64,000 nt of DNA from Hyalangium ruber (lineage in GTDB: Bacteria; Myxococcota; Myxococcia; Myxococcales; Myxococcaceae): the NCBI RefSeq assembly GCF_034259325.1, contig NZ_JAXIVS010000002.1, forward strand, positions 372,001 through 436,000. The letters are read 5' to 3'. The position numbers and the translations under genes were made by a program. The notes under the pieces were generated by a model. The model saw nothing but the letters and a program-made list of their open reading frames with translations, made no database searches and was not told the origin of the DNA. Positions 8,280 to 60,337 of this stretch are shown piece after piece. Numbering within the stretch: position 1 is the stretch's first letter; each line of letters starts with the position of its first letter.

Positions 8280-9509
8280 ATGTCGACGACGGAAGTGGCT
8301 GACCCCTATGGCCTGATGACGCGCCAGTTCCAGGTGGATCCCTACCCCACCTACGCGCGGCTGCGCGACGAAGCCCCCGCCTATTTCAGCGAGGGCTGGG
8401 GCGGATGGATCCTCACGCGCTACCAGGACGTGCAGGCGGGCTTCAAGGACACGCGCCGCATGTCCTCCAACCGCGCCGGTGCCTTCGGCGCCCTGCTCCC
8501 CGCCGCTCTCAAGGAGCGCCTGGCCCCCGTGGTCCGCAGCCTCAGCTCCTGGGCGCTGCTCATCGACCCGCCCGACCACACGCGCATCCGCTCCCTGGTC
8601 AACAAAGCCTTCACCCCGCGCCTGGTGGAGTACCTGCGCCCCCGCATCCAGGAGCTGGTGGATGGGATGCTCGACAAGGCCGAGGCCTCCGGCCGCCTGG
8701 ACGTGGTGCAGGACCTGGCCAACATCCTGCCCGTGTCCGTGATTGGCGAGATGCTGGGCATTCCGCGCGAGGACAGCGTGAAGCTCACCGTCTGGTCCAA
8801 CGCGTTCGCCACCTTCTTCGGCACCGCCAAGTACACCCCCGAGGTGCTGGACCAGATGCGCACCGGCATCGTCGAGATGGAGGACTACTTCCGCGGCGTC
8901 ATCGCCCAGCGCCGCAAGAGCGCCACCGTGGGCAATGACCTGCTGAGCACCATGATGGCCGCGGAGGACCAGGGCAACATCCTCTCCGAGCAGGAGGCGC
9001 TGGCCACCTGCTCCCTGGTGCTCTTCGCCGGCCACGAGACGACGACGCACCTGCTCACCAACGGCCTGTACCTGCTGCTCAAGCACCCCGAGCAGCGCGG
9101 CCTCATGGAGGGCACCGACGAGCAGCTCACCACCGCCGTGGAGGAGATCCTCCGCTACGAGAGCCCCATCCAGCGCCTGAGCCGCGTCATCACCGAGGAC
9201 TTCGAGCTGCACGGGCAGACGCTCAAGAAGGGCCAGAAGGCGTTCGTGATGATTGGCGCCGCCAACCGCGATCCGCTCCAGTTCCCCAAGGCGGAGCAGC
9301 TGGATCTCCAGCGCCAGGACAACCGCCACATCGCCTTCGGCTTCAGCATCCACTACTGCCTGGGCGCCGCCCTGGCCCGCCTGGAGGGACAGATCGCCCT
9401 GCGCACCGTGCTGCGCCGCTTCCCCAACATGAAGCTCCTGCAGGAGCCCGAGCGGCTGGAGAACGTGGCCTTCCGCGGCTTCAAGTCCATGCCCGTCTCC
9501 CTGGGCTGA
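8280..9509 (+). CDS. Cytochrome P450 (first of a tandem pair)
   Basis: The product is a 409-residue soluble bacterial P450 with no membrane anchor. The oxygen-binding I-helix motif AGHETT is at 250-255, an ExxR motif lies in EEILRYES, and the heme-ligand loop FGFSIHYCLG places the axial cysteine at C360. The start at 8280 has a good ribosome site (CAGGAG about 8 bases upstream). The family uses a ferredoxin/ferredoxin reductase pair to hydroxylate small molecules, and no such redox partner is encoded nearby. The second P450 begins 9 bp downstream, so the two are likely co-transcribed. Substrate unknown. Confidence 0.95.
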   Translation: MSTTEVADPYGLMTRQFQVDPYPTYARLRDEAPAYFSEGWGGWILTRYQDVQAGFKDTRRMSSNRAGAFGALLPAALKERLAPVVRSLSSWALLIDPPDHTRIRSLVNKAFTPRLVEYLRPRIQELVDGMLDKAEASGRLDVVQDLANILPVSVIGEMLGIPREDSVKLTVWSNAFATFFGTAKYTPEVLDQMRTGIVEMEDYFRGVIAQRRKSATVGNDLLSTMMAAEDQGNILSEQEALATCSLVLFAGHETTTHLLTNGLYLLLKHPEQRGLMEGTDEQLTTAVEEILRYESPIQRLSRVITEDFELHGQTLKKGQKAFVMIGAANRDPLQFPKAEQLDLQRQDNRHIAFGFSIHYCLGAALARLEGQIALRTVLRRFPNMKLLQEPERLENVAFRGFKSMPVSLG

Positions 9510-9518
9510 GCGCGCGCC

Positions 9519-10775
9519 ATGACCACCCCCGCAGCCGCTCAGCTCGGACTGGAGTACAAGCCGCTCGAAGCGCCCCAGCTGAACGATCCGTTCCCGTTCT
9601 ACGCCCGGCTGCGCCACGAGGCGCCCGTCACCTTCGCGCCAGCCTTCCAGCTCTGGCTCGTCAGCCGGTACGCGGACGTGCAGGCCGCGCTGCGGGACCC
9701 CAAGCGCTTCAGCTCGCGCGACATCCTCCGCCCTCCGGTGGACCTGCCTCCGGAGATGCTCGAGTACCTGAAGGAGGCGGGCTACTCGCCCGAGTATCCG
9801 CTGCTGGGAGATGATCCGCCCTCCCACACGCGCATCCGTGGCCTCGTCGGCAAGGCCTTCTCCGTGGCGAGCGTCGCCGCCATGGAGACGCGCATCCGGG
9901 AGATCGCCCGCTCCTATGTCGATGCGCTGCTGCGCGCGGGCCCCCGCGCGGACGTCGTCGCGGGGCTGAGCTTCCCGCTGCCCATGCACATCATCACCAC
10001 GCTGCTCGGCATCCCGGCTTCCGACGGGGAGAAGCTCAAGGGGTGGTGCGCGGACGAGAACCTCTTCTTCGTCCCCCACCTGCCTCCCGAGGCGCGCATG
10101 CACAGCGCGCGGGGCGTGGCCGCCTTCCGCCACTACCTGCGCGCCATGGTCGAGGAGCGCCAGAAGAACCCGCGCCCGGACGACTTCCTCACCAGCCTCA
10201 TCCAGGCGCGGCTCGAGGGCGAGCGCCCCCTGAACCTCGTGGAGCTCATCAACCTCTCCAGCGTCATCGTCTTCGCCGGCCACGAGACGACCACCAACCT
10301 GATGAGCAGCGCGCTGCTCTACCTGCTCCGCCACCCCACCGCCTGGCAGGAGCTGCGCGCCAACCCCGCTGCCCTCCCCAACGCCATCGACGAGGTGCTG
10401 CGCTTCGACACGCCCGTGGTGGGGATGATGCGCACCGCCACGGAGGACGTGGAGCTGTCCAGCACCCAGGTCCCCGCGGGCGCGCGGTTGCTGCTCCTGT
10501 TCGCCTCGGCCAACCGGGACGAGGCCATCTTCCCCGAGGGGGCGGAGCGCCTCGACATCCACCGCGCCAACGCCAACCGCCACATCGGCTTCGGGCATGG
10601 TGCCCACTACTGCGTCGGCGCGCAGCTGGCGAAGCTGGAGATGCGCATCGCCCTGGAGATGCTGCTCGAGCGCCTGCCGAATCCGCGGCTCGTGCCGGAG
10701 AAGCCCGTGCCCTATCTGCCCGCGCTGATCCACCGAGGGCCCCGCCAGCTGTGGGTGGAGTGGGACGCGGCGTGA
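9519..10775 (+). CDS. Cytochrome P450 (second of a tandem pair)
   Basis: The product is a 418-residue P450. It has the I-helix AGHETT at 253-258, ExxR in DEVLRFDT, and the heme loop FGHGAHYCVG with C365. It starts 9 bp after the first P450, with no obvious ribosome site of its own, which suggests translational coupling. The two proteins share the fold signatures but differ widely in sequence, so they are not a recent duplication. They probably act on the same or successive substrates, perhaps a lipid or secondary metabolite; this is inference. Confidence 0.95.
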   Translation: MTTPAAAQLGLEYKPLEAPQLNDPFPFYARLRHEAPVTFAPAFQLWLVSRYADVQAALRDPKRFSSRDILRPPVDLPPEMLEYLKEAGYSPEYPLLGDDPPSHTRIRGLVGKAFSVASVAAMETRIREIARSYVDALLRAGPRADVVAGLSFPLPMHIITTLLGIPASDGEKLKGWCADENLFFVPHLPPEARMHSARGVAAFRHYLRAMVEERQKNPRPDDFLTSLIQARLEGERPLNLVELINLSSVIVFAGHETTTNLMSSALLYLLRHPTAWQELRANPAALPNAIDEVLRFDTPVVGMMRTATEDVELSSTQVPAGARLLLLFASANRDEAIFPEGAERLDIHRANANRHIGFGHGAHYCVGAQLAKLEMRIALEMLLERLPNPRLVPEKPVPYLPALIHRGPRQLWVEWDAA

Positions 10776-30926: not shown

Positions 30927-31217
30927 GTGGCAGACTCCATCCCCCCGCTCGAGGAGATCGGCAGGGAGGTACGGGCCATCATCGCGGGGGCCCTCAAGCG
31001 TCCGCTGGAGCAGGTTCCCCTCACCGCCCGGCTGGAGAACGGGCTGGGCATCGACTCCCTGGCGATGATCGAGATCAACATCGCCCTGGAGGAGCGCTTC
31101 CGCTTCGCCATGCCGGACATGACTTCGCCGGCCGAGGCCAACCTGAACACCGTGGAGGACCTGGCGCGCTTCGTGGCCCAGCAGCTCTCCCAGCAGAAGG
31201 GGAAGGTGGCGGTATGA
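30927..31217 (+). CDS. Acyl carrier protein
   Basis: The product is a 96-residue stand-alone ACP starting at GTG 30927, with AGGAG about 8 bases upstream. The phosphopantetheine attachment serine is S44 in GLGIDSLAM, followed by the acidic recognition helix IEINIALEERF. The stop overlaps the start of the methyltransferase gene (ATGA). With the acyl-AMP ligase two genes on, it probably receives an activated fatty acid. Confidence 0.9.
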   Translation: MADSIPPLEEIGREVRAIIAGALKRPLEQVPLTARLENGLGIDSLAMIEINIALEERFRFAMPDMTSPAEANLNTVEDLARFVAQQLSQQKGKVAV

Positions 31218-32164
31218 CGGCGATCGACCTGGGGCTGCGGCACCCGGACGAGAAGGTCGCCGCCCAGCGCACCCCCGAGGAGCAGCGGGTACACGAGGCC
31301 CGGGAGGTAGCGCAGCACTACGAGCACAATCCCGACATCTTCAGCCTGGTGCTGGACAAGCGCCTGGCCTACGCCACGGGGGTGTTCCTCTCGCCCGAGG
31401 AGGACCTGGAGACGGCGCAGGAGCGCAAATACGCCCGGGTGGCCGCCAAGCTGAACATCCAGCCGGGAGAGAAGGTGCTGGATGTGGGCTGTGGCTGGGG
31501 CAGCCTGCTCTTGTACCTGGCGCAGCACACGAAGGGCGAGTTCCACGGCATCACCCTGAGCAGCAAGCAGCGCGAGGTGGCGCTGCAGCGGGCCAAGGAC
31601 TGGGGCGTGGCGGACCGCGTGCGGGTGGACCTCACGCACGTGGAGAAGCTCGACCCCGCCCCCGAGAGCTACGACGTGCTGCTCTTCTCCGGCAGCATCG
31701 TCCACATGCACAACCGGGAGGCCATCCACCAGCTGGTGGGGCGCACGCTCAAGCCCGGCGGGCGGCTGTTCATCTCCGACTGCTACTTCCCGGAGCAGGT
31801 GCGCGGCGACCGCGACAGCAGCGCCACGCGCTACATCTTCGTGACGGCGCTGGGCTACTGCCGGCTGCTGAGCCTCTCGGAGGAGCTGGGCCTCATCGAG
31901 CGGGCGGGCCTGGACCTGCTGCACGTGGAGGACCTGACGAGTTCCTACGTGCAGACGCTGGGGCATTGGATCGACAACGTGCGCAAGAACCGCGAGCGAA
32001 TCGAGGCGATGGCTCCGGGCTTCGCCAAGGTGCTGCAGGGCTACATGACGGTGGCGAAGCTGTCGTTCGCCCGGCGCACGGCGCTGGAGTACATGATCCT
32101 CGCCACCAAGGGAGCGCCCAAGGTCCACGTGGCGGGCTGGCCCATCCCCGGGAACGCGAAGTGA
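31214..32164 (+). CDS. SAM-dependent methyltransferase of the cyclopropane-fatty-acid-synthase family
   Basis: The product has 316 residues. The N-terminal QHYEHNPDIFSLVLDKRL segment and the SAM-binding loop VGCGWGS (91-97) are typical of CFA synthase and mycolic-acid-type methyltransferases, which modify the double bonds of acyl chains. At 316 residues it is shorter than E. coli Cfa (382), which carries an N-terminal lipid-binding domain absent here. Since its gene overlaps the ACP gene by 4 bases and the ligase gene by 4 bases, an ACP-bound acyl chain is a plausible substrate. A small-molecule methyltransferase role cannot be excluded. Confidence 0.83.
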   Translation: MTAIDLGLRHPDEKVAAQRTPEEQRVHEAREVAQHYEHNPDIFSLVLDKRLAYATGVFLSPEEDLETAQERKYARVAAKLNIQPGEKVLDVGCGWGSLLLYLAQHTKGEFHGITLSSKQREVALQRAKDWGVADRVRVDLTHVEKLDPAPESYDVLLFSGSIVHMHNREAIHQLVGRTLKPGGRLFISDCYFPEQVRGDRDSSATRYIFVTALGYCRLLSLSEELGLIERAGLDLLHVEDLTSSYVQTLGHWIDNVRKNRERIEAMAPGFAKVLQGYMTVAKLSFARRTALEYMILATKGAPKVHVAGWPIPGNAK

Positions 32165-33837
32165 GCGGCGGGCCCCGGACGCTGGCGGGGTTGCTGAAGG
32201 CCCGCTCCCAGACGCAGGGGGAGCGGCTCGCCGTCCGCTACAAGGAGGGAGAGGAGTGGCTCTCCCGCACCTGGGGCGAGACGTGGGCGGAGGCCCGAGC
32301 GGTGGCCGCGGCGCTCCACGCCCGCGGCGTGCGCCCAGGGGATGGGGTGCTGCTGCTCATCCCCGAGGTGCGCCCGGCCGTGAGCACGCTGTTCGGCGTG
32401 TGGGCGCTGGGCGCGGTGCCCAGCATCCTCGGGGTGCCCTACCGGCTCTCGGACCTGGACGCGTACCTGGAGCAGCTCCGGGGCACGGCGCGCAAGCTGG
32501 ACGCGAAGGCGCTGGTGCTCTCGAGCATGCTGGCGGGCATGGCCGGCGAGGGCTCGGGCAATGGGGTGTCCCTCATCGTCGCCGACTCGCTGGTGGAGGA
32601 GGGCCGGGCGCTGCCGTTCCAGCCCGAGCCGGACGCGGCGCCGGGCCCGTGCCTCGTCCAGCTCACCAGCGGCAGCACGAGCCAGCCGCGCGGCGTGGTG
32701 CTCTCCCATGAGAAGGTGATGCTGCACATGGAGAGCATGAGCCGGGCCCTGCCCTCGCCCGCGCATGCGATGGCGGTGTCCTGGCTGCCGCTGCACCATG
32801 ACATGGGGCTGTTGGGCGGGCTGCTGTTCCCGTTCTTCAACAACTTCCCGGCGCACATGCTCTCGCCGCTCGACTTCCGCCAGCGGCCCTTCGCCTGGCT
32901 GGAGACGATGAGCCAGTTCAAGGGCACCATCTGCGCGGCGCCCCCTTCCGCCTATGCCATCTGCCTGGGGCTGGCCAACCGCGCGAAGGAGGCGGGGCTG
33001 GACCTGAGCGCGTGGGAGGTGGCGATGATTGGCGCCGAGCCCATCTCGCCGGACCTCTTGCGCCGCTTCTCGGACAAGTTCGCGCCGTGCGGCTTCCGGG
33101 CCGAGTCCTTCTTCCCGGTGTACGGGCTGGCCGAGGCCACGGTGGCGGTGACGTTCCCGCCGAAGCTCGCGCCCACGGTGGTGGACCGGGTGGACCGGGC
33201 CACGCTGGAGCGCGAGGGCCGCGCGGTGCCATGCGCCGAGGGGCCGGGCGCGCTGGAGCTGACGGGCGTGGGCCGCCCCATCCCGCATACAGAGGTGCGG
33301 CTGGTGGATGAGCAGGACCAGCCCGTGCCGGAGCGGACGCAGGGAGAAATCCTGGTGCGCGCGGCGACGCTGATGGACGGCTACTACCGCGAGCCGGAGC
33401 TGACCGCCTCCGCCGTTCAGGAGGGCTGGCTGCGCACCGGAGACCTCGGCTACCAGGCGGACGGGACGTACTTCATCACCGGCCGCAAGAAGGAGCTGAT
33501 CATCAAGGGCGGCCACAACCTCATCCCCTCCATCCTCGAGGAGCTGGCCTCGGAGGTGGAAGGCGTGCGGGCCGGGTGCGTGGCGGCGGTGGGGGTGCGC
33601 TCCGAGCAGCGGCAGACGGAGATGGCGTACGTGCTGGCGGAGACGAAGCTCGAGGCCGAGGCCCAGAGCAAGCTGGGCGAGCGCATCCGCGAGCGGCTGC
33701 GGGCCCACGGCATCGCCATCGACCACGTGCTGCTGGTGGCGCCGGGCACGCTGCCGAAGACGACGAGCGGCAAAATCAAACGCCGCGCCATCTCCGAGGC
33801 CATCGCCGCCGGGCAGCTCCCCGGCACGCTGGCCTGA
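32161..33837 (+). CDS. Fatty acyl-AMP ligase (FAAL-like)
   Basis: The 558-residue adenylating enzyme starts at GTG 32161, which overlaps the upstream stop by 4 bases. The phosphate-binding loop is LTSGSTSQPRG. Later motifs are YGLAEATVAV, GWLRTGDLGY and a C-terminal PKTTSGKIKR carrying the catalytic lysine. The WLPLHHDMGL motif and YGLAEATVAV favour the FAAL branch, which loads acyl groups onto an ACP rather than CoA. It is encoded in one operon with an ACP and a methyltransferase. It converges on the trifunctional kinase gene, with only 8 bp between stops. Confidence 0.86.
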   Translation: MSGGPRTLAGLLKARSQTQGERLAVRYKEGEEWLSRTWGETWAEARAVAAALHARGVRPGDGVLLLIPEVRPAVSTLFGVWALGAVPSILGVPYRLSDLDAYLEQLRGTARKLDAKALVLSSMLAGMAGEGSGNGVSLIVADSLVEEGRALPFQPEPDAAPGPCLVQLTSGSTSQPRGVVLSHEKVMLHMESMSRALPSPAHAMAVSWLPLHHDMGLLGGLLFPFFNNFPAHMLSPLDFRQRPFAWLETMSQFKGTICAAPPSAYAICLGLANRAKEAGLDLSAWEVAMIGAEPISPDLLRRFSDKFAPCGFRAESFFPVYGLAEATVAVTFPPKLAPTVVDRVDRATLEREGRAVPCAEGPGALELTGVGRPIPHTEVRLVDEQDQPVPERTQGEILVRAATLMDGYYREPELTASAVQEGWLRTGDLGYQADGTYFITGRKKELIIKGGHNLIPSILEELASEVEGVRAGCVAAVGVRSEQRQTEMAYVLAETKLEAEAQSKLGERIRERLRAHGIAIDHVLLVAPGTLPKTTSGKIKRRAISEAIAAGQLPGTLA

Positions 33838-39588: not shown

Positions 39589-40380
39589 TCAACGTAATTC
39601 CAGAGAACCCTGTTCCCGAAAAGGCTCCTCGGGTGGCGCCTGAGGCAGCGCCGCTTCGATGGTCTCACGGCAGCGCGCCGAGGCCGCGACCGCCGCCTCA
39701 TGAGTCTGCTCCAGCGGACCCACGGGCGGGTGGATGGTGACGAGGATGTCGCCGCCCCGGACCGCGACCTTGCGGTGCCGGGGGAGGATGTCGAACGCGC
39801 CGGAGAGGGTGATGGGCAGCACGCGCACCCCGGCGCGGGCGGCGATGTGGAAGGCGCTGTTGTGGAACGGGCGCATCTTCCCATCGCGGCTGATGCCCGC
39901 CTCCGGGAAGAAGACGATGGAGCAGCGCCGCTGGGCGCCCTGCTGCGCCTGCTGAAGCCCCGGCAGCGAGGCGCGCATGCTGGCGGGGTCCACCGAGATG
40001 TGCCCGAACAGCCGCATGCCCCAGCCGATGAGGGGCACTCGGAACACGCTCACCTGGGCCACCATGCGCAGGGACGTCAGCGGCTGAACCGCTCCCACCA
40101 CCACCACGGCGTCGAGCAGGCTCTGGTGGTTGGCGACGATGATGTAGCGCTCGTCGCGCGACACATGCTCGGCGCCGCGCACCACCAGCCGGGCGCCGCC
40201 CAGCGCGAGGATTCCGCGCGCCCAGAGGATGGAGCACACGTCATGCACGCGCTGCTGGCGATCGAACGGCAGCGCCAGCAAGGCCAGGGGGATGAACACC
40301 ACCAGCGAGAGCATGGACCAGCTCGCGGCCAGCGCCGTGCGCACGAGCTGAACGGGCCGGGAGGGGAGGCGCTCGGACAT
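39589..40380 (-). CDS. 1-acyl-sn-glycerol-3-phosphate acyltransferase (PlsC family)
   Basis: The 263-residue membrane-bound acyltransferase has an N-terminal hydrophobic segment (about 17-37) and the catalytic NHQSLLD box (H85, D90). The substrate-binding box reads FPEAGIS (159-165) instead of the usual FPEGTRS, so substrate preference may be altered. It normally adds an acyl chain to lysophosphatidate in phospholipid synthesis. It starts 10 bp after the stop of the Rieske oxygenase gene, so the two form a transcription unit. Confidence 0.86.
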   Translation of the reverse strand: MSERLPSRPVQLVRTALAASWSMLSLVVFIPLALLALPFDRQQRVHDVCSILWARGILALGGARLVVRGAEHVSRDERYIIVANHQSLLDAVVVVGAVQPLTSLRMVAQVSVFRVPLIGWGMRLFGHISVDPASMRASLPGLQQAQQGAQRRCSIVFFPEAGISRDGKMRPFHNSAFHIAARAGVRVLPITLSGAFDILPRHRKVAVRGGDILVTIHPPVGPLEQTHEAAVAASARCRETIEAALPQAPPEEPFREQGSLELR

Positions 40381-40389
40381 GCGCCCCTT

Positions 40390-41328
40390 CTACCCTTCGA
40401 GGAACTGGCGGCTCCAGTGGCGAAGCACGGGGATGGCGCGCTCCCCTGCGGAGAGCAGGGGCTTGGGCCGGTAGACCTTGTTCTCCCAGATGGGGATGTC
40501 CTCCTCCACCTGGCGCAGGATCTCCGCCACCAGCGCCTTGCCGACGTTGTTGCTGCCGCCCGGCTGCGTGGGCGCTCGGATGAAGAAGGTGTGGCGCAGC
40601 GACACGTGCTCGGGCCCCACCGGCGTGGCGGCGGAGATGAACGCCACATCCGCGATGCCGCTGAAGCGGATGACCCAGTACCCCAGCCCGTGCGCCTCGC
40701 CCTGGATGCGCCCCTGCACCGGGCCCCGGGGGGTGGGCTGGAGCATCTTCGAGTCCATCCGCAGGACATGGCCCTCGGAAGACAGCTCCGCCTCGGGCAT
40801 CGACAGGGCGCTGTGGACGTAGCGGAAGTGGGTCGGGTCGGCGACGTTCTCGGAGATCTCCTGCACGTGGGTGCGGATGCGCCACTGCTTCTTCTGCGCG
40901 AGCAACCACTCCGGCTCGGTGGCCTCGGGGAGCGCGGGGACCCGCCACTCTGGCGCCGCGCCGTCGGCCGCGTGGTAGACGAGGATGACGCCGTTGAGCT
41001 CCTGCACCGGCCACGCGTTCAGCGTCGCGCCGGGCGGAATCTTGGGCGCGTGGGGAATCGCCACGCAGGCGCCCTGGCCGTTGAAGGTCCAGCCGTGGAA
41101 CGGGCACTGGAGGTTGCCCTGGTGAACCCGGCCGCCGTGGCCCAGGTGCGCGCCCAGGTGCGGGCAGTACGCATCGAGCACGTGTGCCTCGCCCGCCTCG
41201 GTGCGGAAGAGCACCAGCTCCCGGCCGAAGCACGACAGGGGCAGCACGCCGCCCGCGGGGAGCTCCTCGGACCACGCGACCTGGAACCAGCCCCGGGGAT
41301 AGGGGGTGAAGGGGAAGCGAGGGTTCAT
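40390..41328 (-). CDS. Rieske-type non-heme iron oxygenase
   Basis: The product has 312 residues. The Rieske cluster ligands are C55/H57 in YCPHLGAH and C75/H78 in CPFHGW. The mononuclear iron ligands are D164, H167 and H172 within NVADPTHFRYVH. The pattern matches the oxygenase component of KshA-like or cholesterol-7-desaturase-like enzymes that act on sterols and other lipids. The start ATG at 41328 was chosen because further upstream codons have no homology-like content. It is followed directly by a PlsC gene. The reductase partner is not nearby. Confidence 0.9.
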   Translation of the reverse strand: MNPRFPFTPYPRGWFQVAWSEELPAGGVLPLSCFGRELVLFRTEAGEAHVLDAYCPHLGAHLGHGGRVHQGNLQCPFHGWTFNGQGACVAIPHAPKIPPGATLNAWPVQELNGVILVYHAADGAAPEWRVPALPEATEPEWLLAQKKQWRIRTHVQEISENVADPTHFRYVHSALSMPEAELSSEGHVLRMDSKMLQPTPRGPVQGRIQGEAHGLGYWVIRFSGIADVAFISAATPVGPEHVSLRHTFFIRAPTQPGGSNNVGKALVAEILRQVEEDIPIWENKVYRPKPLLSAGERAIPVLRHWSRQFLEG

Positions 41329-47407: not shown

Positions 47408-48517
47408 ATGGATGTCCAGGTCCGCTTCGCCCGCACGGAGGAGGAGCGCGCCGCCATCTACCATCTGCGGTACGCCACCTACGTCGAGGAGATGCACCTG
47501 TACGCGGGCCAGGCGGATCATTCGCGCCGCCAACTGGTGGACACCGCGGATGCGCAGGCGCACCAGCTCTACGCGGAGGTGGACGGGCAGGTGGTGGGCA
47601 CGCTGCGGCTGCACCTGGGCAGCGACGGGCCGCTGCCGGAGACGCTGGCGAAGCGCTTCGAGCTGGAGCGCTTCGTGCCCCAGGTTCCGGTGGAGCAGGT
47701 GTGCTTCGTGGGGCGCTTCATGGTGCGCCGGGACATGCGGGGCACGGCGGTGCCGTACCGGCTCATCCAGGAGAGCATCCGCTTCCAGTTGGAGCGGGGC
47801 ATGGAGCTGACGCTGTGCGACTGCCAGCCGCACCTGCTCAACCTCTATACGTCCCTGGGGTTCCGGCCATACCTGGGCACCTATGACGACCCGGAGTTCG
47901 GGGTGATGGTGCCGCTGGTGCTGGTGCTGAGGGACCGCGAGCACCTGGAGTGGGTGGGCTCGCCGCTGCGGGCGCTGCTGCCGTCGGACGCGCCCGCCTC
48001 GGAGGTGCCAGCGCGCGTGGCGCCGCTGCTGGAGCAGGCGCGGGGGGTGCTGAGCCAGGAGGCGAGTGACCCGGACCAGTACTGGCGGGAGGTCCACGGG
48101 CTCCTGGGGCGCTCCCGGCCGCAGGTGTTCAGCGGACTGTCGGAGCCGGAGCTGCAGGCGGTGCTCGCCAGCAGCCATGTCATCGAGTGCGCGCCGGGAG
48201 ACTGCCTCATCCGCCGGGGCCAGGTGGCGCGCACGGTGTTCGTGGTGCTCTCCGGCACGCTGGAGGTGCGGGACGGAGAGCGCGTGGTGGCGGTGGTCAG
48301 CGAGGGCGAGGTGCTGGGAGAGGTGGCGTTCCTGCTGTCGACGCCGCGGATCAGCGACGTGTACGCCACGGGCGCGGGGGCGCGCCTGCTGTGTCTCAGC
48401 GAGAAGTCGTTGCGGGGGCTGATCGACTCCAGCTCCCGCGCGGCGGCACTGCTGCTGCTCAACCTCTCCCGGGCCCTGGCCCACAAGCTGGTGCAGCGCG
48501 CCGACAGCCCGAAGTGA
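47408..48517 (+). CDS. GNAT/LuxI-like acyltransferase fused to a cyclic-nucleotide-binding domain
   Basis: The product has 369 residues. The N-terminal ~210 residues show an RYATYVEEMHL segment and a PEFGVMVPLVLVL end reminiscent of LuxI-type or PEP-CTERM-associated acyltransferases with the GNAT fold. The C-terminal ~130 residues form a cNMP-binding domain with the phosphate-binding cassette GEVLGEVAFL and PRISDV. Binding of cAMP or cGMP could therefore control acyl transfer. In mycobacterial cAMP-dependent acetyltransferases the domain order is reversed. The product could be an acyl-amino acid or a signal lipid; no target is evident. Confidence 0.8.
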   Translation: MDVQVRFARTEEERAAIYHLRYATYVEEMHLYAGQADHSRRQLVDTADAQAHQLYAEVDGQVVGTLRLHLGSDGPLPETLAKRFELERFVPQVPVEQVCFVGRFMVRRDMRGTAVPYRLIQESIRFQLERGMELTLCDCQPHLLNLYTSLGFRPYLGTYDDPEFGVMVPLVLVLRDREHLEWVGSPLRALLPSDAPASEVPARVAPLLEQARGVLSQEASDPDQYWREVHGLLGRSRPQVFSGLSEPELQAVLASSHVIECAPGDCLIRRGQVARTVFVVLSGTLEVRDGERVVAVVSEGEVLGEVAFLLSTPRISDVYATGAGARLLCLSEKSLRGLIDSSSRAAALLLLNLSRALAHKLVQRADSPK

Positions 48518-56858: not shown

Positions 56859-58196
56859 ATGGATACGAAGGTAAGGGCAGTCTCCAAGCCCGAGGGGAAG
56901 CTGGCGATTCTGTTGCCGGGCCTCGGAGCGGTCTCCACCACCCTCATCGCGGGCGTCGAGATGGTCCGTCAGGGCAAGGGCCTGCCCGTCGGCTCGCTCA
57001 CGCAGATGGGCACCGCGCGCCTGGGCAAGCGGACCGAGGGCCGCACCGTGAAGATCAAGGACCTGGTGCCGATCGCCCAGCTCCAGGACGTGGTCTTCGG
57101 CGCCTGGGACATCATCAACGAGAACGCCGCGCAGGTGGCTGCCCGCTCGGACGTGCTGAGCAAGGAGCACCAGGAGCTGGTGCGCCCGGCGCTGGAGAAG
57201 ATCGTCCCCAAGAAGGGCGTGCACAACCCCGAGTTCGTGCGCCGCATCGCCGCCAACCACATCAAGGACACCAAGACGCACCGCGAGAGCATCGAGGCGC
57301 TGCGCCAGGACATCCGCGACTTCAAGAAGGAGCTCGGGGCCAAGCGCGCGGTGATGATCGTCTGCGCCTCGGTGGAGACGTACACGGGCACCCCGGCGGC
57401 CACGCAGTCGCTCGCGGCGCTGGAGAAGGCGCTGGACGCCAATGACGCCTCCATCAACCCCACGCTGCTGTACGCCTACGCGGCGCTGAAGGAGGGCGTG
57501 CCCTTCGCCAACGCCACGCCGAACACCTCGGTGGACACCCCCGCGCTGCAGGAGCTGGCGCGCCAGGAGGGCCTGCCGGTCGCGGGTAGGGACTTGAAGA
57601 GCGGCCAGACGATGATGAAGACGGTCATCGCCCCCTCGCTCAAGGCGCGCATGCTGGGCCTCGAGGGCTGGTTCTCCACCAACATCCTGGGCAACCGCGA
57701 CGGCGAGGTGCTGGATGATCCGCAGGCCTTCAAGGCCAAGGAAGTGACCAAGGCGGGCGTGCTGGACACCATCCTCCAGCCCGAGGTGTACCCCGAGCTC
57801 TACGGCAAGGTGAGCCACAAGGTCTCGATCCACTACTACCCCCCGCGCGGCGACGCGAAGGAGGGCTGGGACAACATCGACATCTTCGGCTGGCTGGGCT
57901 ACCCCATGCAGCTGAAGATCAACTTCCTGTGCCGCGACTCCATCCTGGCCGCGCCGCTGGTGCTGGACATCGCCCTGTTCCTGGACCTGGCCAAGCGCCT
58001 GGAGTGGAAGGGCATCCAGGAGTGGATGTCGTTCTACTTCAAGAGCCCGATGGCGCAGCCGGGCCTGCAGCCCGAGCACGACCTGTTCATCCAGCAGACG
58101 AAGCTGAAGAACACGCTGCGCATCATCGCTGGCGAGGAGCCCATCACCCACCTCGGCCTCGACTACTACGGGGATGACCTCCCTCTCGCCCGCTAA
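56859..58196 (+). CDS. ino1: myo-Inositol-1-phosphate synthase
   Basis: The product has 445 residues. It converts glucose-6-phosphate to 1D-myo-inositol-3-phosphate with NAD+. Visible family features are the N-terminal dinucleotide fold LLPGLGAVSTTLIAG, GAWDIINENA, YAYAALKEGVPFANATPN, and the C-terminal AAPLVLDIALFLDLAKR. Length is normal. The PAP2 gene starts 23 bases before its stop, so translation is coupled. It is the first step of the operon's proposed inositol-lipid pathway. Confidence 0.95.
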   Translation: MDTKVRAVSKPEGKLAILLPGLGAVSTTLIAGVEMVRQGKGLPVGSLTQMGTARLGKRTEGRTVKIKDLVPIAQLQDVVFGAWDIINENAAQVAARSDVLSKEHQELVRPALEKIVPKKGVHNPEFVRRIAANHIKDTKTHRESIEALRQDIRDFKKELGAKRAVMIVCASVETYTGTPAATQSLAALEKALDANDASINPTLLYAYAALKEGVPFANATPNTSVDTPALQELARQEGLPVAGRDLKSGQTMMKTVIAPSLKARMLGLEGWFSTNILGNRDGEVLDDPQAFKAKEVTKAGVLDTILQPEVYPELYGKVSHKVSIHYYPPRGDAKEGWDNIDIFGWLGYPMQLKINFLCRDSILAAPLVLDIALFLDLAKRLEWKGIQEWMSFYFKSPMAQPGLQPEHDLFIQQTKLKNTLRIIAGEEPITHLGLDYYGDDLPLAR

Positions 58197-59106
58197 GACC
58201 GGGTCGAAGGCGTTTCCGTGGCTCATCTCCCTGTTCGGGGTGGGCCACCTCGCCTTCGTCGCCGCGATGGGGAAGCTGCGGTGGGAGCACGCCGCGGCGG
58301 ACCTCTTGCTCGTGGGGCTGGCTTGGGCCGGCCCCGCGCCGCGGCGTTTTTTGCGGGGCGCCTTCCCGCTGTACCTCACCGGACTGCTGCTGGACACCCA
58401 GTGGCTGTGGCTGGGGCTGCGGGGGCGCATCCACACCGGTGACTTGTGGGACCTGGAGCTCGCGCTGTTCGCCGCGCCGGGCAACACCACCTGGCCGGCC
58501 TACTTCGAGACACGCACCCACGCGGTGCTCGACTTTTTCTGTGGCTTCTCCTACGCGGCCTACCTCTACGAGGTGTTCGCGCTGGCCCTGCTGTACTTCT
58601 TCCGCAAGCACCCGCGCTTCGAAGTCATGTGCTGGGCCTTCATGCTGTGCAACGCCATCGGGGTGGTGACGTACATCGTCTACCCCGCGGCTCCGCCCTG
58701 GTACGTCATGCAGTACGGCCCGGGGCCGGCGGACCTGGCGGCAGCTCCGAGCCAGGCGGGTACCGCGCGCTTCGACGCGCTGCTGGGCATCCGCTACTTC
58801 GCCAACTTCTACGCTCGTAACCCCAACGTGTTTGGCGCCATGCCCTCGCTGCATGCCGCCTACCCCGTGCTGGTCGTCTGGCAAGCATGGGGGCTGGGGA
58901 GGGCCTGGCGCGTCGGTACCATCGCCTTCGCCGCGTTGGTGGCATTTTCAGCCATATATCTGCAGCACCACTACATCCTGGACGTCGTGGCCGGGGTCGT
59001 CGTTGCCCTGGTGGCGTGCTCGGCCGTGGAGTACGCCTTCGCCCGCCGTGAATCATCGGCCGTCACGCCCGTCCCCCTCGTGCCTGGAGGAGACAGCCGT
59101 GCTTGA
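58174..59106 (+). CDS. PAP2-family, inositol phosphorylceramide synthase-like membrane enzyme
   Basis: The product has 310 residues and about six membrane helices. The PAP2/LPT catalytic motifs are present as GAMPSLHAAYP (H227) and HHYILDVVAG (H265/H266, D270). This pattern is shared with AUR1-type IPC synthases, which transfer phosphoinositol from phosphatidylinositol to ceramide. It sits between inositol-phosphate synthase and a CDP-alcohol phosphatidyltransferase, which supports this role over a plain lipid phosphatase. The frame overlaps both neighbours. Confidence 0.8.
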   Translation: MTSLSPAKTGSKAFPWLISLFGVGHLAFVAAMGKLRWEHAAADLLLVGLAWAGPAPRRFLRGAFPLYLTGLLLDTQWLWLGLRGRIHTGDLWDLELALFAAPGNTTWPAYFETRTHAVLDFFCGFSYAAYLYEVFALALLYFFRKHPRFEVMCWAFMLCNAIGVVTYIVYPAAPPWYVMQYGPGPADLAAAPSQAGTARFDALLGIRYFANFYARNPNVFGAMPSLHAAYPVLVVWQAWGLGRAWRVGTIAFAALVAFSAIYLQHHYILDVVAGVVVALVACSAVEYAFARRESSAVTPVPLVPGGDSRA

Positions 59107-60337
59107 CACCGTTGTGTCCTGGATTCTGGGAGACCTCTCCCCTTCCGCTCGTATCTGGACGGCGCTCGCGCCAGCCATCTTCGCGTGCGGCTACTTCATC
59201 ATCGGTCTGCTGCTGTTCCTGGTGCGCTGCGCCATCAAGGGCGTGCCCCAGGACGAGGAGACGCTCAAGCGCGGTAGCACCGTGCTGGTGGGCATGTTCC
59301 TGCGGCACTACTTCTTCTGGGTCATCCAGCCCCTGTACGCGCTCATCTACCGCTCGGGGCTGCCGGCCAACGCGCTGTCCATGCTGTCGGGGCTCCTCGG
59401 AGTCTCCTCGGGCGTGGCGGTGGCGGCCGGGCGCTTCGCGATGGGCGGCTGGCTGTTCCTGGCCGCCGGCATCCTGGACGTCATGGACGGCCGCATCGCC
59501 CGCGTCCGCAAGGAGGCCAACCCGGCAGGCGCGGCGCTGGACTCGGTGCTGGACCGGTACGTGGACTCGGCCATGCTGATGGGCCTGGCCTGGTACTACC
59601 GGGACAACTGGGTGCTGCTGCCGGTGCTGGTGGCGTTCCTGGGCACCTCGCTGGTGCCCTACGTGCGCGCGCGCGGCGAGGGCCTGGGCATCAACATCCG
59701 CGGCGGGGCCATGCAGCGCCTGGAGCGGGTGCTCTTCCTGGGCGTGGGCGTGGCGCTCTCGCCCATCATCGAGGCCATCTGGTTCCCCGAGCAGAAGCAC
59801 CCCATGCACTGGCTGGCCGTGGTGGGCCTGGTGTTCGTGGCGGTGATGAGCAACGTGACGGCGCTCTCGCGCTTCCGGGCGCTGGTGGCCGCGCTGGCGC
59901 CGCCGAAGCCCGCGCGCAAGCGCTCGAGCTCGGCGATTCTCGGCTTCAACGCGGCGGCGGGAGCGATTGCCACGGGCATCGACTTCGCCGCGGTGCTGGC
60001 GATGGTGAAGTGGCTGGACTTCTCGCCGGTGCTGGCCACGGCGCTGGGGTGCGTGCTGGGCGGGGTGGTGAACTACTCCATCAACCGCGTCATCACCTTC
60101 CGGAGCCGAGGCGCGGTGGCGCCGCAGCTGGCGCGCTACGCGCTGGTGAGCGCCACCAGCGCACTGCTGAATGCGGGCGGGGTGGCGTTGTTCACCCTGC
60201 ACCCGCAACTGGCGTACACGCTGGGTTGGTGGTTGGCTCGCGGGGCGGTGTACTTCGCGTGGAACCTCCCCCTCCAGCGGGACTACGTCTTCAATGACCC
60301 GCCGGAGGCGCTCCTGGAGCGCCCTCATGCGGCTTGA
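59099..60337 (+). CDS. CDP-alcohol phosphatidyltransferase fused to a GtrA domain
   Basis: The product has 412 residues and starts at GTG 59099 with GGAGGAG upstream. The N-terminal half has the full CDP-OH-PT motif D127xxD130G131xxAR135, G144, D148, D152, so it should join inositol phosphate to CDP-diacylglycerol (phosphatidylinositol-phosphate synthase role). The C-terminal ~120 residues match the four-helix GtrA family, associated with lipid-linked substrate translocation. The fusion is unusual and suggests synthesis coupled to movement across the membrane. Confidence 0.88.
   Translation: MLDTVVSWILGDLSPSARIWTALAPAIFACGYFIIGLLLFLVRCAIKGVPQDEETLKRGSTVLVGMFLRHYFFWVIQPLYALIYRSGLPANALSMLSGLLGVSSGVAVAAGRFAMGGWLFLAAGILDVMDGRIARVRKEANPAGAALDSVLDRYVDSAMLMGLAWYYRDNWVLLPVLVAFLGTSLVPYVRARGEGLGINIRGGAMQRLERVLFLGVGVALSPIIEAIWFPEQKHPMHWLAVVGLVFVAVMSNVTALSRFRALVAALAPPKPARKRSSSAILGFNAAAGAIATGIDFAAVLAMVKWLDFSPVLATALGCVLGGVVNYSINRVITFRSRGAVAPQLARYALVSATSALLNAGGVALFTLHPQLAYTLGWWLARGAVYFAWNLPLQRDYVFNDPPEALLERPHAA

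Follow-up and report, generated by a model that had tools for sequence, protein, structure and literature searches.

FAALs are known mainly as polyketide and lipopeptide loaders, and mycolic-acid methyltransferases modify long acyl chains bound to a carrier protein. Described systems that come close to the locus considered here include the Ftp alkylresorcylic acid operon of M. xanthus, in which, according to Hayashi et al. 2011, a FAAL serves a type III PKS; the ligase AasR, which loads only its AcpR and feeds rhodobacterial sphingolipid synthesis (PMC9386255); the E. coli enzyme Aas, which unites an acyl-ACP synthetase and a lysophospholipid acyltransferase in one fusion protein; and AmxMT1 of anammox bacteria, a CFA-like methyltransferase that lacks a bicarbonate site and binds an ACP dedicated to it (PMC9821293). 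Myxobacterial ACP-ligase operons are also mentioned in PMC9386255, and these could include trios of the present type; the library searched yielded no description of a cassette combining a FAAL, an ACP and a CMAS methyltransferase.

The window (the whole stretch of 64,000 nucleotides of Hyalangium ruber that was analysed, from a host genome of 10.8 Mb) carries three genes on its forward strand in the order ACP, methyltransferase (MT) and FAAL, with one large protein kinase gene on the opposite strand at each flank:

30927..31217, + strand: dedicated acyl carrier protein (ACP), 96 aa; PF00550, 1e-9; GIDS phosphopantetheine serine
31214..32164, + strand: SAM methyltransferase (MT) with a CMAS fold lacking the cyclopropane-synthase bicarbonate site, 316 aa; PF02353, 1.2e-40
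32161..33837, + strand: FAAL family ligase, 558 aa; AMP-binding, 1e-56; best PDB match EcFAAL 3pbk, 2.3e-74

Like the Ftp operon and its homologue elsewhere in the host genome (C4:588-593 kb), the trio is a myxobacterial set of overlapping genes that includes an ACP and a FAAL; the Ftp-type operons differ in encoding a type III PKS and no CMAS methyltransferase. The trio resembles AasR-AcpR in that a ligase is accompanied by its own ACP, a pairing which in that system diverts free fatty acid to a lipid rather than to a polyketide (PMC9386255), and is distinguished from it by the MT placed between the two; Pfam scans covering part of the flanking ORFs brought up no serine palmitoyltransferase.

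Structure and co-inheritance of the trio

Both the ACP/MT and MT/FAAL junctions are 4 bp overlaps (ATGA and GTGA), the ACP begins at a GTG preceded by AGGAG, with start and ribosome-binding site both kept in orthologues, the FAAL also begins at a GTG, and the phosphopantetheine serine lies within GIDSLAMIEIN, a DSL-type carrier-protein motif. The frames, the overlaps and the Pfam domains all bear out the original prediction of three overlapping genes for an ACP, a CFA-type MT and a FAAL.

The order ACP-MT-FAAL was found in the window and at 19 other loci, the carriers being other Myxococcaceae, Nannocystis, Polyangium, Sorangium, Minicystis, one Acidobacteria MAG and one Alphaproteobacteria MAG. 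Close MT orthologues (88-91% identity) occur in five further Myxococcaceae genomes, all five of which retain the intact trio and both 4 bp overlaps, and dN/dS values of 0.07-0.38 for all pairs and all three genes among the Myxococcaceae trio genomes indicate purifying selection. A scan of named genomes returned 15 MT orthologues at an identity of at least 63%, the next match falling to 36%; these came from one Pyxidicoccus (a genome already among the Myxococcaceae carriers and not counted twice), four Nannocystis, two Polyangium, five Sorangium, Minicystis, one Acidobacteria MAG and one Alphaproteobacteria MAG. The gene order was intact in 15/15 of these loci, in each of which the ACP adjoins the MT. 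The conserved order, the conserved overlaps and the purifying selection rule out that the frames overlap by chance.

Pairwise protein distances of the MT, FAAL and ACP correlate with r of 0.92-0.97 (0/2000 permutations), from which it follows that the trio moves as a unit whose genes are inherited together. The Acidobacteria MAG (L065 4181-8510) presents a tandem form, ACP-MT-ACP-MT-FAAL, with a membrane fatty acid desaturase directly after it. The trios of Sorangium (L063 1717-5484) are preceded by four conserved genes, of which two encode additional methyltransferases and the other two give no Pfam match; the L063 FAAL itself matches in two frames and was for that reason excluded from residue comparisons.

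Fold, clade and active site of the methyltransferase

The AF2 model of the MT (pLDDT 87) aligned with CFAS and CmaA structures at Z 30-35, confirming the presence of the CMAS fold, and its nearest folds were the mycolic-acid methyltransferases MmaA2/CmaA1 (Z up to 34.8). The window MT therefore has its family and fold in common with CFA synthases and with the mycolic-acid methyltransferases MmaA2, CmaA1, CmaA2, PcaA and MmaA4 (Z about 30-35), and to this extent the label "CFA-type" given to it originally was correct. Where that label implied a CFA active site and CFA chemistry it did not hold, since the bicarbonate site has gone. In E. coli CFAS, bicarbonate is held by C139, E239, H266, I268 and Y317 (PMC3132707; also PMC9821293). 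The first four of these (E. coli numbering) are each kept in 0/26 FAAL-linked MTs, the replacements in 26/26 being Thr/Pro/Ser for C139, Val/Thr/Ile for E239, Ser for H266 and Cys/Thr/Ser for I268, whereas homologues that are not FAAL-linked keep C139 in 66/69, E239 in 69/69, H266 in 65/69 and I268 in 67/69. The bicarbonate tyrosine Y317 is kept, the corresponding Y245 of the window MT being invariant in 28 aligned sequences; the His beside E239 is kept too. In the MT tree, all FAAL-linked MTs formed one clade (support 100) apart from 37 other CMAS proteins, with two halves corresponding to the trio type (support 99) and to a second type of cassette that includes a desaturase (support 98).

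This second cassette was recognised in three other Myxococcaceae genomes, where an MT 33% identical to that of the window lies in the order ACP-MT-acyl-ACP desaturase-FAAL, and in Rhodococcus rhodnii and two Pseudofrankia, where FAAL, MT and desaturase are grouped; it is thus common to Myxococcaceae and Actinomycetota. Among the actinomycetotal examples an ACP match was obtained in Rhodococcus, where a possible hotdog thioesterase lies between FAAL and ACP, and none was found in the two Pseudofrankia. The desaturase cassettes (L031 7927-11637, L048, L071, L095, L106) have likewise lost the CFA bicarbonate site.

With four of the five bicarbonate residues replaced in 26/26, we rejected on the active-site test the identity of the MT as a cyclopropane synthase; because those residues are replaced and the clade is separate, cyclopropanation by the MT is unlikely. 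Annotation by family alone would label it a cyclopropane synthase, and the active site argues otherwise. To judge by these substitutions, the chemistry of the MT probably differs from that of CFA enzymes. A RebM-like His-Asp base would be no more than a guess. A CFA-like MT that builds a cyclopropane ring, or else a methyl branch in mid-chain, at the double bond of an unsaturated acyl-ACP would accord with the CMAS fold and family, with mycolic-acid methyltransferases as the nearest folds, with the acyl-ACP desaturase of the sister cassette and with the desaturase at the Acidobacteria trio. Set against the loss of C139, E239, H266 and I268 from every FAAL-linked MT, and the universal retention of E239 in the others, such an enzyme is unlikely, although this argument concerns the ring only, and a ring-free methyl branch made via another base would escape it.

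As to substrate, the modelled fold would fit an acyl-ACP, since its nearest folds, the mycolic-acid methyltransferases, act on carrier-bound chains. AmxMT1 provides a precedent for ACP binding by an enzyme that, like the window MT, is CFA-like and devoid of the bicarbonate site; the sequence match to its structure (7v6h) is weak (1.8e-9), and AmxMT1 differs from the trio in being tied to FASII gene clusters, with no FAAL described alongside. It could also be argued that the substrate of the MT is a small molecule or a lipid head group and that the MT is no more than an operon neighbour of the ACP and FAAL, given that RebM, AtmM, MitM and phosphoethanolamine N-MTs are among its structural or sequence neighbours; this is very improbable in view of the gene order and joint inheritance that tie the MT to the ACP and FAAL across several phyla and in both types of cassette.

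The ligase and the search for an assembly line

The top PDB matches of the ligase were FAALs (3pbk, 2.3e-74; 3kxw, 2.7e-67; then FadD23, FadD32 and FadD28), and the first acyl-CoA ligase, FadD5, came at 3.7e-28. Both the FAAL-specific insertion and the FAAL-specific helix are present, and the alignment with EcFAAL runs through both with a gap of one residue at most. The bulky pocket by which EcFAAL rejects CoA comprises W224, M231 and F279, and FAALs with reduced pocket residues can form acyl-CoA (PMC8460268). Trio ligases keep W224 and M231, and Phe279 is replaced by Ser in all readable trio ligases. Judged on these sequence features, the trio ligase is likely to load ACP over CoA, the Phe279 substitution counting against the ACP-loading part of the explanation developed below.

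No PKS or NRPS was detected in Pfam scans of the window ORFs, in agreement with the original prediction that none is adjacent, and a ketosynthase search of the 950-kb contig carrying the trio was equally negative, so that a linked assembly line was rejected for the window ORFs and contig searched. Nor was an assembly line found in the examined flanking genes of the trios of other lineages. PKS genes and a type III PKS are present elsewhere in the host genome, and the majority of characterised FAAL-ACP pairs serve assembly lines (PMC11837247), so the methylated acyl-ACP might be conceived as a starter unit supplied in trans to a PKS, type III PKS or NRPS from another genomic site. This is improbable in view of the contig without a ketosynthase and of the flanks without an assembly line; and because the type III PKS is accompanied by its own pair of overlapping genes for an ACP and a FAAL, the latter 37-39% identical to the window FAAL, it is unlikely that the trio feeds it. 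The ACP, MT and FAAL-family ligase, co-inherited and with no assembly line nearby, sustain the earlier view of the trio as a self-contained lipid-tailoring unit.

Partner genes and the fate of the acyl chain

Two further genes of the window are relevant to the acceptor side:

39589..40380, - strand: PlsC/LPLAT-type acyltransferase, probable acceptor-side partner; PF01553, 5.9e-27; NHQSLLD motif
40390..41328, - strand: Rieske/KshA-type oxygenase, a weaker associate; PF19298 and PF00355; true start likely near 41328

The PlsC-type acyltransferase occurs in exactly the same 6/96 Myxococcaceae genomes as the MT, although the six copies are related and their co-occurrence thus represents few independent events. 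Its gene converges with that of the FAAL and lies about 50 bp or less from the FAAL stop in the two g23 genomes and farther away in others; the two genes are separated by other genes in 3/6 genomes (window, G133 and G135), and in G134 they are on different contigs. From this distribution, the PlsC-type acyltransferase, which the original prediction had overlooked, is likely to be the acceptor-side enzyme in Myxococcaceae. The system would then resemble E. coli Aas in comprising a ligase and a PlsC-type acyltransferase with acyl-ACP between them, and the window acyltransferase does match Aas-type models weakly; it differs from Aas in its separate genes, its own ACP, its methylation step and its FAAL-type ligase.

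The Rieske oxygenase lies beside the acyltransferase, at 75-79% identity, in only 4/6 trio genomes (that of the window and G133-G135), and at such identity is absent from the two g23 genomes; missing from 2/6, it is a weak candidate for a core partner. It matches 4beta-methylsterol monooxygenase weakly. Elsewhere in the window, a tandem pair of cytochrome P450 genes stands behind a sensor histidine kinase (8280-10775, + strand).

Outside Myxococcaceae, the acyltransferase was not seen beside the trio in any of the loci, an outcome that counts against the preferred explanation, and other genes, which the original prediction had likewise overlooked, accompany the trio there: the fatty acid desaturase in the Acidobacteria trio, alpha/beta hydrolases in Polyangium and Nannocystis, and, in the alphaproteobacterial MAG (L068), a gene for a GNAT-like protein that overlaps the FAAL stop. 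The last of these lends some colour to the proposal that a FeeM/GNAT-type N-acyltransferase places the acyl group on an amine, yielding an N-acyl amino acid or aminolipid, as do a FeeM-like N-acyl amino acid synthase GNAT fused to a cyclic-nucleotide-binding (cNMP) domain in the window (47408-48517, + strand) and its 81% identical homologue in G134 (L145), which is conserved roughly 6 kb away from the acyltransferase. The window FeeM-like gene is, however, 13.6 kb away from the FAAL, and the L068 protein is a sub-threshold Pfam match only; the proposal strikes us as improbable, slightly more so than the in trans starter unit.

The explanation that we prefer, with belief and doubt about equally divided, is a self-contained cassette in which a free fatty acid is loaded on a dedicated ACP, methylated, and passed to an enzyme of transfer or release that differs between lineages. 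By analogy with its family, the ligase would adenylate the free fatty acid and load the dedicated holo-ACP. The MT would then methylate the ACP-bound chain with no cyclopropane being formed, the loss of the bicarbonate site pointing to oxygen or activated carbon as the most likely recipient of the methyl group, whereupon the lineage-specific enzyme would take the modified chain. In Myxococcaceae, co-distribution suggests that the convergent PlsC-type acyltransferase most likely moves the chain to a lysolipid or similar acceptor. The differences in partner between lineages would be consistent with a fixed core for loading and methylation and an exchangeable last step.

More broadly, and tentatively, with doubt here outweighing belief, the FAAL-linked CMAS-fold enzymes may constitute a new class of acyl-ACP methyltransferase with its own chemistry, carried in portable cassettes (ACP-MT-FAAL, or with an added acyl-ACP desaturase) with an interchangeable transfer step, whose products in Myxococcota, Acidobacteriota, Alphaproteobacteria and Actinomycetota would be methylated acyl lipids not yet described. 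If so, the FAAL would belong to a pathway in which a fatty acid is tailored on a dedicated carrier and then goes to a lipid, and the CMAS fold would gain a methylation chemistry beyond the bicarbonate-assisted type.

A separate lipid-related feature of the window is a gene for myo-inositol-1-phosphate synthase close to one for a CDP-alcohol phosphatidyltransferase/GtrA fusion (56859-60337, + strand), an arrangement which suggests that inositol phospholipid synthesis is encoded there.
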